Source: Alphaproteobacteria bacterium (GTDB lineage: Bacteria; Pseudomonadota; Alphaproteobacteria; RF32; CAG-239). Taken from it: 64,000 nucleotides of DNA. Of this stretch, positions 3,865-60,990 are shown piece after piece (the stretch's first letter is position 1; every line of letters starts with the position of its first letter). Position numbers and translations under genes: made by a program. The stretch lies in the NCBI GenBank assembly GCA_028706255.1, contig JAQWBS010000001.1:263411-327410 (forward strand). Reading direction: 5' to 3'. The notes under the pieces are model-generated. The model saw only the letters and a list, made by a program, of their open reading frames with translations. It searched no databases and was not told the origin of the DNA.

Positions 3865-4434
3865 TTATTTAAAAATTAATTTAGCATCACCAGAAACCCA
3901 GTCATATTTCTTGCAAATATTAATCCAGTTTTTTAGTTTTTCCTGACTTTTATCTTCATCCAGTGTTGCACCTTTATCTATTAAAAACTTGGACATGTCA
4001 CAATTATATAAACGCAATGCACCACCCAACGGGGTTATCCCTTTTTTATTAGAAAAGTTAATATCCATTTTTTTGTCCTTAATCAACAACTCAACTAAGT
4101 CTTTTCTATCAAGCAAAACAGCTGAAAGAAGAGGTGTTAAATCTCCTGTTGGATTGATATTCGGGTTAACCCCTTTATCTAATAAAAATCTTACAAACTC
4201 GATATCAACCTTTTCTCTGTAATTAGCCATATAGACTTGAATATAATTTCCAAGATAAACATTATTAGGATCAATTTTTTTCTCATCAACATAATAACTA
4301 AAAGATTCTTTATCCTCATCAGTAATCGCAACAATTAGAGATATTTCATCACGAACTAAATAATACAAAACACCAACTGCCATAATCATTACAACAAGGA
4401 CAATTCCTAAAATTTTCAATATCTTTTTCAACAT
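3865..4434 (-). CDS. Membrane-anchored ankyrin-repeat protein, cassette 2
   Basis: 189 residues, paralog of 2430-3011 and 4682-5251. MLKKILKILGIVLVVMIMAVGVL gives a single N-terminal membrane anchor, followed by ankyrin-type helices: FVRFLLDKGVNPN, LTPLLSAVLLDRKDLVELLI, ITPLGGALRLYNCDMSKFLIDKG. It ends with the shared WVS near the C-terminus (CKKYDWVSGDAK). It probably presents the ankyrin surface on the outer side of the inner membrane (inferred) and follows its own copy of the promoter/inverted-repeat block. Sequence differences among paralogs concentrate in the repeat surfaces. Confidence 0.75.
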   Translation of the reverse strand: MLKKILKILGIVLVVMIMAVGVLYYLVRDEISLIVAITDEDKESFSYYVDEKKIDPNNVYLGNYIQVYMANYREKVDIEFVRFLLDKGVNPNINPTGDLTPLLSAVLLDRKDLVELLIKDKKMDINFSNKKGITPLGGALRLYNCDMSKFLIDKGATLDEDKSQEKLKNWINICKKYDWVSGDAKLIFK

Positions 4435-54764: not shown

Positions 54765-56018
54765 ATGTATTTAAAAGATTTAAAAGACAAATCTCCTAAA
54801 GAGTTACTCACTCAAGCAGAAGAATTAAATATTGAAGAAGCATCTTCAATGCGTAAACAAGACCTCATTTTTGCAATTTTGAAAAAAGTTGCTTCTGAAG
54901 ATAATATCATTTATGGCGAAGGGGTAATTGAAGTTTTACAAGACGGATTTGGATTCCTACGTTCTTCTGAATCAAATTATCTTGCTAGCCCAGATGATAT
55001 TTATGTTTCTCCTTCACAAGTTAAAAAATTTGCTTTAAGAACAGGTGACACACTTGAAGGTGAGATTAGAGCTCCAAAAGATAATGAACGTTATTTTGCT
55101 CTAACTAAAGTTATTAGAATTAATTATGATGATCCTGAAAAATCTAAACTCCGTGTTAATTTTGATAATTTGACACCGCTTTATCCAAGAGAAAAACTTG
55201 ATTTTGATATCATAAACGGTGAAAAAGACTACACAACTCGTGTGATTGATTTAATTGCTCCACAGGGAAAGGGGCAACGTGGATTAATTGTTGCACCACC
55301 AAGAACAGGTAAAACAGTAATGCTTCAAAGTATTGCGCATGCGATTGCAGAAAAAAATCCTGAAATTTATTTGATGGTTCTGTTGATTGATGAACGTCCT
55401 GAAGAAGTTACAGATATGATTCGCTCTGTTAGAGGTGAGGTTATCTCTTCAACGTTTGATGAACCAGCAAGCCGTCACGTTCAAGTGGCAGAAATGGTTA
55501 TTGAAAAAGCGAAGCGATTAGTGGAAATGAAAAAAGATGTCGTTATTCTTCTAGATTCAATTACACGTCTAGGAAGAGCTTATAACACTGTCATTCCATC
55601 ATCAGGTAAGGTTCTAACTGGTGGGGTTGATGCAAACGCTCTACAACGTCCTAAACGCATTCTAGGGGCTGCTAGAAACATTGAAGAAGGTGGTTCTTTA
55701 ACAATTATTGCCACAGCTTTGATTGATACAGGTTCAAGAATGGATGAAGTTATTTTTGAAGAATTTAAGGGAACAGGTAACTCAGAAATCATTTTGGATA
55801 GAAAACTCACAGATAAAAGAATTTTCCCAACGATTGATATTACGCGTTCAGGAACCAGAAAAGAAGAGCTTTTGGTTGATAAAGCAACACTTTCTAAAAT
55901 GTGGGTTCTTCGTCGTGTCTTGATGCAAATGGGTGTAACAGACGGCATGGAATTCTTGCTTGATAAGATTTCACATTCAAAAGATAATGATGATTTCTTT
56001 ACGACAATGAATAGTTAA
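54765..56018 (+). CDS. rho: Transcription termination factor Rho
   Basis: 417 residues. N-terminal helical and OB-fold RNA-binding domain ([46 protein letters not shown]), then the hexameric ATPase: Walker [12 protein letters not shown], Walker [18 protein letters not shown]-loop [23 protein letters not shown] and R-loop [15 protein letters not shown]. First gene right of the candidate origin. Confidence 0.98.
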
Positions 56019-56023
56019 AAAGG

Positions 56024-56052
56024 TGGCTTCTCTAAAGAGAAGCCATTTTTTT
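56024..56052 (+). terminator. Terminator after rho
   Basis: TGGCTTCTCT/AGAGAAGCCA stem followed by seven T. Confidence 0.9.
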
Positions 56053-56053
56053 A

Positions 56054-56082
56054 TTGACAAACCCTCTAATTTAGCCAATTAT
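56054..56082 (+). promoter_or_regulatory. Promoter of the leader peptide-GNAT-M20 transcript
   Basis: A perfect TTGACA (56054-56059), with AATTAT after 17 bases (56077-56082) or TATATT after 20. It precedes the leader open frame by about 35 bases. Confidence 0.55.
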
Positions 56083-56114
56083 ATTCAAAGTTATTTATTT
56101 TTTTAAGGTCACAA

Positions 56115-56228
56115 ATGAAAAAAGAAACATCTACATCTTTTTTTATTCAATCAGAAAAAACTTTTTCTGAGTCATTTGTGCATTTCAATCAAAATTCTCT
56201 ACTTCTACTCTTTCTTACCAACCTCTAG
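56115..56228 (+). CDS. Leucine-rich leader peptide
   Basis: 37 codons with AAGG six bases before ATG. It starts MKKETSTSFF and ends NSLLLLFLTNL, with four consecutive Leu codons (CTA CTT CTA CTC at 56199-56210), then Phe-Leu-Thr-Asn-Leu and TAG at 56226-56228. It is followed at once by mutually exclusive RNA pairings and a terminator, so it reads as an attenuator leader whose translation senses charged leucine tRNA (inference). It has no similarity to a folded protein. Confidence 0.6.
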   Translation: MKKETSTSFFIQSEKTFSESFVHFNQNSLLLLFLTNL

Positions 56229-56291
56229 GCGTTTTCATCAGAGTTATTAAGGCTTGGGCGCTTGGAGGAAATCTTAAACAAGCGTTTTTTT
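56223..56291 (+). promoter_or_regulatory. Transcription attenuator of the GNAT-M20 operon
   Basis: The terminator is CGCTTG (56259-56264) pairing with CAAGCG (56279-56284), followed by seven T. The competing antiterminator is CTCTAGGCG (56223-56231), which includes the last codon and stop of the leader frame, pairing over nine positions (two G-U) with CGCTTGGAG (56259-56267) and so occupying the terminator's 5' arm. A ribosome at the stop codon would mask CTCTAGGCG and allow termination; one stalled at the Leu run about 24 bases upstream would leave it free and permit read-through. Confidence 0.6.
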
Positions 56292-56324
56292 GTATGAAAA
56301 TTTAGTAAGAAAGAGAAAGATAAA

Positions 56325-57071
56325 ATGAATAAGAATATCCAAATCAGAGAAGCAAATTTTACTGATGTTAAACAAATTGCAGCTGTTCACAGTGTTTCAG
56401 CTTATAAGGCTTATGATCATATTATGTCGAAAGAAATTTTGGAAGGATTTTGGAATCCTGAAACTTTGGAACAAGATTGGCATAATTACATTTCTCAAAC
56501 CAAGAAAGATAAAGATTATACAGCTTACGTTGCTGTTGAAAACGATCAAGTAATAGGTGTTTTAAGAGCGAATAGTGCAAATGCTCACGATAAAGAAATT
56601 TTTGACGACATTGGTCAAAAAGATATGTCGGATTATGTGCATTTTAAAACGATTTACATTCATCCAGATCATCAAGGCAGAGGAATTGGAAAAGATTTTA
56701 TTTCTCATGCCGCAATGGACGCTTTGAAAAATGGCAAGAAAAAATTAATGACCATTACCACAGATAAATATGAAGATTCCCCTAGGTTTTTTAAGAGTTT
56801 TGGAGCGTCTTTTGCTGGTCGCCATGATGTTGATATGAAAGAACACTATGACACCACCACATCAGACGCTAAAGACTCAAAATTAGTGACAAATGTTTGG
56901 GTAATGGATGCAAAAGAAGTTTTATTTATTTCTCATGAAAAAGATAGAAAACAAGCTGAACAAAAAAATAGTAAAATAATAAGTATCATTAATAATAAAA
57001 ATTCATATAATTATGCTAAGCATAAACCAGTGATTGTTCGTCCAATATTTGCTAAAGCAGTAGGGAGATAA
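56325..57071 (+). CDS. GNAT-family N-acetyltransferase
   Basis: 248 residues. A GNAT domain (about 5-165) with the acetyl-CoA-binding IYIHPDHQGRGIGKDFI (Q/R-x-x-G-x-G) and a C-terminal SPRFFKSFGASFAGRHDVDMKEHYD. An extra 65-residue tail is unusual. The M20 gene starts 2 bases after its stop. Paired with a deacylase-type peptidase it may act on an amino acid or small amine; the substrate is unknown. Expression is probably governed by the upstream attenuator. Confidence 0.82.
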   Translation: MNKNIQIREANFTDVKQIAAVHSVSAYKAYDHIMSKEILEGFWNPETLEQDWHNYISQTKKDKDYTAYVAVENDQVIGVLRANSANAHDKEIFDDIGQKDMSDYVHFKTIYIHPDHQGRGIGKDFISHAAMDALKNGKKKLMTITTDKYEDSPRFFKSFGASFAGRHDVDMKEHYDTTTSDAKDSKLVTNVWVMDAKEVLFISHEKDRKQAEQKNSKIISIINNKNSYNYAKHKPVIVRPIFAKAVGR

Positions 57072-57073
57072 AA

Positions 57074-58204
57074 ATGTCTGAATCATTATATGTTTTAGAA
57101 AAACTCATTTCTTTTGATACAACAATTTCAAAAAATACATTACAAGCTGTTGAATTTGTTAAAGAATATTTAGAATTAAAAAAGGTTAAAACACATATAG
57201 TCTATAATGAGGAAAGAACCAGAGCAAGTTTGCTTGCCACTATTGGTGATGAAAGCAAAGCAGGGATTGTTCTTTCAGGACATTTAGACACTGTTGCTTC
57301 GATAAAAGAAGAATGGGACACAGACCCACATCAACTCACTGAAAAAGGAACAAAGCTTTTTGGACGTGGAACAAGTGATATGAAAGGCGGAATTGCTTGT
57401 GCTTTAGGAAATGTAGATGCTCTAAAAGCGAGTGGAAAAACTTTTCATTTTTCTTTAACGCATGATGAAGAAGGTATTTTTTCAGCCATTAAACAACTAA
57501 ATAAAACAAATTTTGATGGATTCTTTAAGCATAAACCTGTTGGCTGCATGGTGATGGAACCGACGCTTTTGAAACCTATTTATGGGCATAAGGGAACATA
57601 TTTAGGAAAAATTAAAATTGTTGGTAAAGAAAGTCATTCAGCATATCCTCATCTTGGGGTTGATGCTTTGGGATACATGGTTAAAATTTATAATCAAATT
57701 AATAAAATTATGACTGAATTTGGTAAAAATTCAGCAACTGATGAAATTTATAGCCCCAACAAAACGAATTTGAATATATGCACTTTTAATTCAGGAGATG
57801 CGATTAATAAAATTTCAGGGTTTGCGGAACTCTCATTTTGCATGCGTTATCTACCGCAAGACGAGATAAAGATTATCTTGAAAAAAATTATGAATTTCTG
57901 TGAAGAAATTGAACAAGAGATGAAACAACAAGATGAAAACTGTTCCGTTATATTTACTGAAATCCTAGATGTTAAAGGGTTTGAGAGCGATTTAGATTCT
58001 GATTTTGTAAAGAATTTTGATGAACCAACAAAAGTGAGTTATGCCACTGAAGCAGGATATTTTCAAGAGCTTGGCATTAACACAATTGTTTTTGGCCCTG
58101 GAAGTATTGAACAGGCTCACATAAAAAATGAATTTATTGAAAAAGCTCAGCTTGAAGCGTTTGATAAATTTATTCAAGAAAAATTATGTTCATTTGAGGT
58201 TTAG
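57074..58204 (+). CDS. M20-family metallopeptidase/deacylase (ArgE/DapE-like)
   Basis: 376 residues. Zinc motifs SGHLDTVA (His70, Asp72), GRGTSDMKGGIACAL (Asp102), THDEEGIF (Glu132 general base, Glu133) and ESHSAYPHLGVDALGYM in the dimerisation lid region. Such enzymes remove acyl groups from amino acids (acetylornithine, succinyl-diaminopimelate) or cut dipeptides. Co-transcribed with the GNAT gene behind a leucine-rich leader, so an acylated amino-acid substrate is plausible. It lacks clear ArgE- or DapE-specific evidence. Confidence 0.85.
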   Translation: MSESLYVLEKLISFDTTISKNTLQAVEFVKEYLELKKVKTHIVYNEERTRASLLATIGDESKAGIVLSGHLDTVASIKEEWDTDPHQLTEKGTKLFGRGTSDMKGGIACALGNVDALKASGKTFHFSLTHDEEGIFSAIKQLNKTNFDGFFKHKPVGCMVMEPTLLKPIYGHKGTYLGKIKIVGKESHSAYPHLGVDALGYMVKIYNQINKIMTEFGKNSATDEIYSPNKTNLNICTFNSGDAINKISGFAELSFCMRYLPQDEIKIILKKIMNFCEEIEQEMKQQDENCSVIFTEILDVKGFESDLDSDFVKNFDEPTKVSYATEAGYFQELGINTIVFGPGSIEQAHIKNEFIEKAQLEAFDKFIQEKLCSFEV

Positions 58205-59572: not shown

Positions 59573-59646
59573 GATAGTCTTCCAAAAATTAAAATCAGTT
59601 TTGTATTCTATCTTGGGAGTGATTTATTTTTTCTTAAGAGGAATTG

Positions 59647-60990
59647 ATGACAAATAAAACAATTTATGCACTTTCAACAGTGAATGGAAAATCTGGGGTT
59701 GCTATTATCAGAGTTTCAGGAGCTGAAGCTTTGGCTGTTGTTAAAAAAATGACTGAGCTTGATGTTTTCAGCCTTAAATCTCGTTATGCTTATTTTACAG
59801 ATTTAAAAGACATTGTTTCACGTGGAACGTTAGATAAGTGTTTATTGTTATATTTTAAAGCACCCAATTCTTTTACTGGTGAAGACATTGTTGAGCTTCA
59901 TCTTCATGGCTCAAAAGCTGTCATTTCAAGTGTGATTAAAAACTTGTCTTCTCTTGAAAATTTCAGAATGGCGGAAGCTGGCGAATTTTCAAAGCGTGCT
60001 TTTTACAATAATAAAATGGATTTAACGGAAGCAGAAGGGTTAGCGGACTTGATTGATGCTGAAACTTCTGAACAGCAAAAGTTTGCCATTCGTCAAATGG
60101 AAGGAAGCTTGAGCAATCTTTATGAAACTTGGCGTGAAGCTTTAATTAAAATTTTGGCACATCTCGAGGCTTATATTGATTTTCCTGATGAAGAAATTCC
60201 TGATGATGTGGTTGAAAAACTTTTGAACAATGTATTTAAACTTCAAAATGAGATTAAACAACATCTTGAAAGTGATAATATTGGTGAAAGGCTGCGTGAA
60301 GGTTTCAGAGTGGTTATTGTTGGCGCACCAAATGCAGGAAAGTCAAGTTTACTAAATAATATTGCAAAGCGAGAAGTTGCAATTGTTTCAAACATTGCTG
60401 GAACAACCAGAGATGCTATCGATATTCATTTAGATTTAAAAGGATATCCAGTTGTTTTCACAGACACTGCTGGGTTAAGAGAAACAATCGAAGAAATTGA
60501 ACAAAAAGGCATTGAAATTGCGAAGTCTAAAGTGAGCTCTGCCGACCTTGTAATTTGTTTATTTGATGGTGAAAAAGAAAACATCTCCATTTTTGACAGC
60601 ATTAAAGAATTGTTTAAAAACAAGCCGATAGTCGTTGCAAATAAATGTGATAAACTAATTTCTGAACAATGTTCACAGCTTGAAAATCAAGGGTGTTTAC
60701 CAATTTGTGCAAAAACGGGTGAGGGGGTTGAAGTCTTATTAAATAAAATTTATGAAGAAATTGAACAGCGTTTCACATCTAACTCAAGCGTGCTGATTAC
60801 AAGAGCAAGATACCGTGAATATCTAAGTGATGTTTTAGAAAATTTAGAGCTATTTAATCTTGATAAGGAAATTGAACTTTCTGCCGAAGACATTCGTTTG
60901 GCAGCACGTTCTTTAGGAAAAATTACAGGAAGAATAGAGGTTGATGATATCTTAGATAAAATTTTTGGCGATTTTTGTATAGGAAAGTAG
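59647..60990 (+). CDS. mnmE: tRNA uridine-5-carboxymethylaminomethyl modification GTPase MnmE
   Basis: 447 residues from ATG 59647 (AGAGGAA upstream). N-terminal formyl-THF-binding domain (TIYALSTVNGKSGVAIIRVSG), helical domain, G domain (VVIVGAPNAGKSSLLNNIAKR, AGTTRDAI, DTAGLR, NKCD) and the invariant C-terminal CIGK. It works with MnmG, encoded just downstream, to modify U34 of tRNAs. Confidence 0.97.
   Translation: MTNKTIYALSTVNGKSGVAIIRVSGAEALAVVKKMTELDVFSLKSRYAYFTDLKDIVSRGTLDKCLLLYFKAPNSFTGEDIVELHLHGSKAVISSVIKNLSSLENFRMAEAGEFSKRAFYNNKMDLTEAEGLADLIDAETSEQQKFAIRQMEGSLSNLYETWREALIKILAHLEAYIDFPDEEIPDDVVEKLLNNVFKLQNEIKQHLESDNIGERLREGFRVVIVGAPNAGKSSLLNNIAKREVAIVSNIAGTTRDAIDIHLDLKGYPVVFTDTAGLRETIEEIEQKGIEIAKSKVSSADLVICLFDGEKENISIFDSIKELFKNKPIVVANKCDKLISEQCSQLENQGCLPICAKTGEGVEVLLNKIYEEIEQRFTSNSSVLITRARYREYLSDVLENLELFNLDKEIELSAEDIRLAARSLGKITGRIEVDDILDKIFGDFCIGK

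Follow-up and report, generated by a model that had tools for sequence, protein, structure and literature searches.

Leader-peptide attenuators are textbook controls of amino-acid synthesis. Why, then, does a leucine-rich leader with the parts of such an attenuator precede a GNAT acetyltransferase and an M20 deacylase? The question is raised by a locus in the 64,000-nucleotide stretch of alphaproteobacterial DNA analysed here (the window), where an initial annotation had proposed a classical attenuator sensing leucine. Comparison of this locus with related genomes makes it very probable that the element is a ribosome-mediated transcription attenuator of the leuA-leader type, acting on the GNAT-M20 operon in a lineage auxotrophic for branched-chain amino acids (BCAA).

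The leader element between rho and mnmE

The operon occupies the slot between rho and mnmE, in the gene order dnaQ-coaE / rho-slot-mnmE-mnmG. This arrangement is in keeping with Alphaproteobacteria, and the order is probably one of the gut such as RF32. Its features are the following.

54765..56018, + strand: rho, upstream neighbour (NCBIfam rho equivalog, above cut-off)
56024..56051, + strand: likely rho terminator, hairpin TGGCTTCTCTAAAGAGAAGCCA followed by T7 (from sequence)
56054..56082, + strand: putative sigma-70-type promoter, -35 TTGACA (56054-56059) and -10 AATTAT (56077-56082), 10/12 matches
56105..56108, + strand: putative Shine-Dalgarno AAGG of the leader ORF (from sequence)
56110..56180, + strand: hairpin P1 over the leader start codon, CACAAATGA (56110-56118) with TCATTTGTG (56172-56180), containing inner hairpins (covariation)
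56115..56228, + strand: leader peptide ORF, 37 aa, MKKETSTSFFIQSEKTFSESFVHFNQNSLLLLFLTNL (homologous leaders in G002 and G016)
56199..56210, + strand: control codons CTA CTT CTA CTC (four Leu; rare Leu codons)
56208..56315, + strand: possible extra helix, CTCTTTCTTAC (56208-56218) with GTAAGAAAGAG (56305-56315) (minimum-energy fold; weak)
56222..56268, + strand: antiterminator, CCTCTAGGCG (56222-56231) with CGCTTGGAGG (56259-56268) (folding, covariation)
56256..56291, + strand: terminator, (GGG)CGCTTG (56256-56264) with CAAGCG(TTT) (56279-56287), T7 at 56285-56291 (folding)
56325..57071, + strand: GNAT acetyltransferase, 248 aa (Pfam PF00583)
57074..58204, + strand: M20 metallo-deacylase, 376 aa, ArgE-like (below ArgE equivalog cut-offs)
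59644..60990, + strand: mnmE, downstream border of the slot

Every part that the initial annotation had placed within 56054-56291 was found there, including the 37-codon leader with its four consecutive Leu codons. The putative promoter boxes are separated by 17 nt, and the -35 TTGACA is also present in both close relatives (G002 and G016). The stem of the rho terminator is symmetrical, and the terminator listing places it on the other strand. The leader ORF runs from an ATG at 56115 to a TAG at 56226-56228, carries two more Leu codons (56214-56216 and 56223-56225), and ends with its stop codon inside the 5′ arm of the antiterminator; the Leu run starts 23 nt upstream of that arm. The antiterminator has 10 pairs, one more than had been noted, three G-U pairs could extend it, and its 3′ arm shares bases with the terminator. 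The hairpin over the leader start codon is an addition to the initial annotation and covaries too.

Folding in both states agrees with the exclusivity claimed for the two helices. When the antiterminator 5′ arm is left free, the antiterminator is the fold obtained for the downstream RNA (-19.8 kcal/mol); deleting the footprint of a ribosome at the stop codon shifts the fold to the terminator (-11.4 kcal/mol). Compared with its shuffles, the 240-nt leader RNA is 3.7 s.d. more stable, and none of them was as good (0/200). Rare CTA and CTC make up 4/6 leader Leu codons compared with 13% of the Leu codons in the window's genes (p=0.004), while TTA and TTG are absent among the six. Elf and Ehrenberg argued that sensitive attenuation needs rarely used control codons (PMC1183508), and the codon choice in the window leader agrees with this theory. 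Among the marks of an attenuator, the locus has a short leader ORF that could be translated and whose control codons belong to a single amino acid or group and, downstream of these codons, a mutually exclusive antiterminator and terminator, the latter with T7 in the window; judged by position only, a ribosome at the stop codon would mask the antiterminator and one stalled on the Leu run would not.

Neither enzyme falls within a named function. The GNAT model has a pLDDT of 77, with very low confidence in the tail (215-248), and the nearest solved folds include PaiA and phosphinothricin-type GNATs; the protein scores 32.7 against a cut-off of 250 for the PaiA spermidine/spermine acetyltransferase equivalog and is not close to any named acetyltransferase. 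For the M20 protein, scores for the ArgE acetylornithine deacetylase models also lie below their cut-offs (TIGR01892, 245.9 vs 297.7; PRK07522, 306 vs 412), and a search of the genome's contigs with it returned one unrelated match only.

Recurrence across the order and anatomical likeness to leuA leaders

Two genomes of a neighbouring genus, G002 and G016, encode the same GNAT-M20 pair as the window, directly behind rho in the former and ~2 kb behind rho in the latter. At the same place they carry the homologous leaders MFDLFLTSSLISGKSFSGAFALSLIISVLLITVL and MQMSNCFTYSSLNSGKTFSGTSAVFLLISILLITVL, to be compared with MKKETSTSFFIQSEKTFSESFVHFNQNSLLLLFLTNL in the window. The hairpin arms of the three genomes (CCTCTAGGCG/CGCTTGGAGG, CCTCTAGGCC/GGCCTGGAGG and CCTCTAGGTC/GACCTGGAGG) differ by changes that compensate. 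Over the three sequences, 4 double changes were counted. Among seven sequences, 6 pairs show double changes and 97.6% of cells are paired, a level matched by 0/500 shuffles and at most half reached by slid controls. Three pairs of the start-codon hairpin are changed on both sides in the same seven sequences, and the N-terminal two thirds of the leader are conserved only as this hairpin.

Covariance models were built from the three sequences (R1) and from seven (R2). Since MAFFT misaligned untrimmed leaders, the alignments were made after manual shortening of loops and spacers; both models and the covariation pair counts rest on these shortened sequences, with arms unaltered and confirmed in the full-length loci. 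The R1 search yielded four further elements and reached only seven true genomes. With matches accepted up to E = 0.05, R2 was positive in 36/153 genomes of the order, and reading of these matches gave 34 distinct elements in 25 genomes, each with a leader stop codon, be it TAG, TAA or TGA, in an unchanged position within the arm and a matching 3′ arm. The element is therefore present in at least 25 genomes, with matches in G066, G140 (C11), G147, G164 and G168 left outside the confirmed set. Matches in G083, G096 and G220 were rejected after reading. A DNA similarity search with the leader returned its own copy plus three short chance-like matches only.

The last 16 leader residues contain on average 8.7 Ile, Leu or Val, compared with 4.4 in 399 control ORFs of the window. 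A competing downstream helix is better than 95% of shuffles in 24/34 elements and is followed by a clear T run in about eight; since no T run accompanies the alternative helix in many relatives, these may terminate less strongly or by different means. A second leader lies between the first leader and the genes in G002, G016, G040, G157, G098 and G011. The recurrence of the leader, its stop-codon position and both covarying helices confirms, at the level of sequence comparison, an element beyond chance. Leader frame, BCAA codons, antiterminator and alternative terminator helix are all conserved in relatives, as the classical attenuator reading predicts; non-conservation of the frame or its Leu codons, named beforehand as the finding that would speak against it, was not what the comparison gave. 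The Leu run of the window leader would sense leucine, but leucine alone does not describe the close relatives, whose leaders mix Ile, Leu and Val.

In G001, of the same genus as the window, neither the leader nor the GNAT gene was found next to rho (L028), so the slot is variable within the genus. There, rho is followed by a terminator and then a convergent 274-aa gene.

The metabolic setting is unusual as well. A search for ilvC (PF07991) found it in 0/153 genomes of the order and in 14/14 control genomes, and leuA gave no match in the window's genome at the threshold used. Synthesis of BCAA by the usual route is thus seemingly impossible, and the attenuator appears to have outlived the biosynthetic pathway in this lineage.

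Inspection of leuA upstream regions from 24 genomes of the class showed, in 16 of them, a leader rich in Leu with its stop codon inside a hairpin; a stricter automatic count gave 10/24, limited by the choice of ORF start, ORF length and loop range. Among control small ORFs, 5.8% have a stop-codon hairpin. In the leuA leaders the hairpin starts 4-6 nt before the stop codon, with arms such as CCCCTGAGCG/CGCTCAGGGG; examples are a leader ending in ALLLLLSCP (hairpin CCCCTAGGCG/CGCTTAGGGG) and one ending in LSLLTICL (hairpin CCTCTAGGAC/GTCTTAGGGG). The window leader shares with them the Leu run and a stop codon in a hairpin starting ~4 nt before it, which makes it an alphaproteobacterial leuA-type leader by anatomy. 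Unlike them, it precedes a GNAT-M20 pair in a genome without leuA or ilvC, and its last codon is Leu, where leuA leaders of GC-rich species usually have Pro. Outside the order, R2 matched G324 in a class-wide search and G200 when leuA loci were searched, in each case immediately before leuA. These are the only two leuA leaders that R2 recovers at E below 1, so the argument for shared ancestry with GC-rich leuA leaders is one of anatomy and not of a strong profile score. On this basis, the window attenuator may descend from a leuA leader.

Attenuators of amino-acid operons in proteobacteria were reportedly reviewed by Vitreschak et al. in 2004. The ribosome-mediated attenuation with control codons proposed for the window leader is also that of Leu_leader (RF00512) and other enterobacterial leader families; unlike members of these and other Rfam leader families the window leader stays below the gathering cut-off, and neither RF00512 nor another leader family was returned by a search of Rfam at the gathering or a relaxed threshold.

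Enzyme pairs and control codons behind the leader class

The initial annotation had singled out the controlled operon as unusual, and the order bears this out: four non-homologous kinds of operon stand behind the same leader class, in genomes without ilvC. The GNAT+M20 kind is found in the window, G002 and G016; in G022, a GNAT-like gene without a Pfam match is followed by a DapE-like M20 gene and a symporter. An ATP-grasp-like protein is paired with an AstE/AspA deacylase in G040, G089, G098 and G081, and its gene alone was recovered as first gene in G088, G079 and G160. An amidoligase_2 protein precedes a formylglutamate-amidohydrolase-like protein in G011 and G075 (first gene in five more genomes), and a 600-610-aa protein precedes an S66 peptidase in G157 and G082 (first gene in eight more). 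Many of these operons adjoin rho in the rho-mnmE slot and others are located elsewhere. All second genes belong to amide hydrolase families, and all recognised first genes to acylating or amide-forming families. The 600-610-aa family (L089, L092 and L091), with its S66 peptidase partner in two genomes, is 53-74% identical between genomes; it had no Pfam match and no sequence match in the PDB. A structure model of the 610-aa protein was set aside as too poor (pLDDT 49).

Control codons vary among sister operons. G098, G081 and G079 contain a second, paralogous ATP-grasp operon with an aromatic leader ending in YFSYYFFIGF or YVFFSYYFFIGF (loci L088 6890-7140, L094 1670-1925, and L143). In these leaders the last codon is TTC instead of CTC, a Leu-to-Phe change, with a compensating G to A opposite; the arm CTTCTAG pairs with CTGGAAG, so that pairing survives the codon change. 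The window's own genome has an ATP-grasp+AstE operon on contig 4, preceded by a leader of another composition:

contig 4, 173483 (L148, reverse complement from 4518), - strand: Cys/Met-type leader, MKMMMCCCCSTHRSFVLTTHL

This operon has a terminator-like GGTTGTAAGAAAATACAACC followed by T6, the 5′ arm of which is complementary, in the manner of an antiterminator, to CTTACAAC in the leader, and the element is likely a Cys/Met attenuator. Related genomes carry a leader of the same class, MRYFMLNIYCCCMNLLSI. More distant ATP-grasp+AstE operons (L149 and L150) have Arg-rich leaders, MMKKSFTYSDLIRRSFRRS and one ending in ELRRRTERR, with a LivJ-like amino-acid binding protein downstream. The Cys/Met and Arg leaders were identified by eye. 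Together, the aromatic, Cys/Met and Arg leaders of sister ATP-grasp operons indicate that the sensed amino acid is exchangeable. The leucine-related acyl-amino-acid or peptide pathway suggested earlier is compatible with the amide hydrolases in second position and with the swapped leader codons.

Proposed mechanism and competing explanations

Under the attenuation reading, RNA would start just after rho and the leader would be translated from 56115. With ample Leu-tRNA, the ribosome would reach the stop codon and block the antiterminator 5′ arm (56222-56231), leaving the terminator (56256-56291) to end transcription. When charged tRNA-Leu is scarce, it would stall on the rare Leu codons (56199-56210), so that the antiterminator forms, the terminator is excluded, and GNAT and M20 are transcribed. 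Promoter use, leader translation and the direction of this response are what we infer from the layout. Counting against the reading, there is no evident reason why scarcity of an amino acid should induce a ligase or an acetyltransferase. For the operon itself we tentatively favour a role in which an amide conjugate of the limiting amino acid would be scavenged or turned over.

The main rival to this handling of amide conjugates keeps the sensor and gives the operon another task, namely protection against aminoacyl-tRNA synthetase inhibitors or toxic amino-acid conjugates, which the GNAT would cap and the hydrolase cleave. In microcin C immunity, MccE (a GNAT) caps and MccF (an S66 peptidase) cleaves. 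The window likewise pairs a GNAT with a hydrolase, one operon type includes an S66 peptidase of the MccF family, inhibition of a synthetase would mimic starvation, and the non-homologous pairs that follow a single leader recall interchangeable resistance cassettes. The likeness to MccE/MccF is one of gene families, both acting on an amide-linked aminoacyl compound in that system; the window has M20 instead of S66, and no microcin genes were seen. Moreover, two operon types encode large ATP-grasp or amidoligase proteins in place of capping enzymes, many operons share a single, constant position among housekeeping genes, the Arg-type operons have an amino-acid binding protein downstream, and a search of the defence library gave no match, which together make protection unlikely. 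The sensor, too, could differ: nascent-peptide or drug-dependent ribosome stalling, as at erm, cat and TnaC, would respond to something other than tRNA charging and make the operon one of inducible resistance. Leader ends that are alike across the order (LLIMNL, LIISL and LLITVL) and the resistance enzymes among the GNAT folds nearest to the window protein would suit such an arrest. It is nevertheless rather improbable, as the control residues vary among homologous ATP-grasp operons (BCAA, aromatic, Cys/Met or Arg), the layout kept in BCAA and aromatic leaders fits codon reading over one arrest peptide, rare synonymous codons are chosen, and the N-terminal two thirds of the leader are unconserved apart from the hairpin.

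Control might also be mainly translational, with the extra helix 56208-56218/56305-56315 covering the ribosome binding site of the GNAT gene as long as no ribosome is stalled on the Leu run. This helix is a perfect 11-bp pairing in the minimum-energy fold; however, a helix of 11 bp arises in ~2% of shuffles, the relatives were not seen to have an equivalent, and second leaders intervene in G002 and G016, and we consider this explanation quite improbable. That a former leuA leader merely survives here as a relic, now devoid of regulatory function, as the absence of ilvC from the order and of leuA from the window genome might suggest, is highly improbable: compensatory changes continue in both helices across the order, leaders occur in tandem, and control codons have come to specify other amino acids while pairing was maintained, which together argue that the leader is under selection.

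With attenuation as the preferred reading, the mechanism is old, and the regulon, its auxotrophic setting, the replacement of enzyme pairs and the exchange of control codons appear to be new. Operons of amidoligases, ATP-grasp proteins and GNATs with linked amide hydrolases were reportedly described by Iyer and Aravind. Those operons also place an amide-forming or acylating enzyme beside an amide hydrolase; unlike them, several pairs here share one slot and amino-acid-specific attenuators. No report of this regulon, or of a link between such pairs and attenuators, was found in the open-licence literature, which is weak evidence since subscription papers mostly lie outside it. An attenuator class persists in bacteria that apparently lack BCAA synthesis, in front of enzyme pairs that replace one another. 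A more speculative reading, less likely than not, is that old biosynthetic attenuators, freed from lost pathways in an auxotrophic order, were rebuilt into a modular starvation response, in which leaders with exchangeable codons (BCAA, aromatic, Cys/Met or Arg) would each drive an amide-forming enzyme and an amide hydrolase acting specifically on conjugates of the amino acid in question; if true, it would point to an undescribed route of amino-acid acquisition or storage. As leader codons name the scarce amino acid, they offer a direct, testable clue to the physiology of these amidoligases, ATP-grasp proteins, GNATs and the 610-aa family, enzymes that are not assigned by sequence similarity alone.

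Several minor observations concern the genes and their surroundings. The products of the first genes frequently have a short C-terminal tail that is basic or rich in Gly (AKAVGR, AAAGRK, FAVGGRK or GGRYGF). Within a few kb of the ATP-grasp+AstE operon on contig 4 there are a tRNA-Met and a metK-like gene. The GNAT-M20 pair of G092 (L031, reverse complement 4150-4322) is preceded by an unrelated possible leader, MILTLSHLQLIDQFRFNRRCRSVCVCLKL, rich in Arg and Cys, and a strong terminator lies just before its GNAT gene. In G145 (L034), the surroundings of an M20 protein 38% identical to that of the window recall a peptide-modification cluster, its neighbours being, as judged by eye, an apparent radical-SAM protein, an apparent PqqD-like protein and an apparent GNAT.
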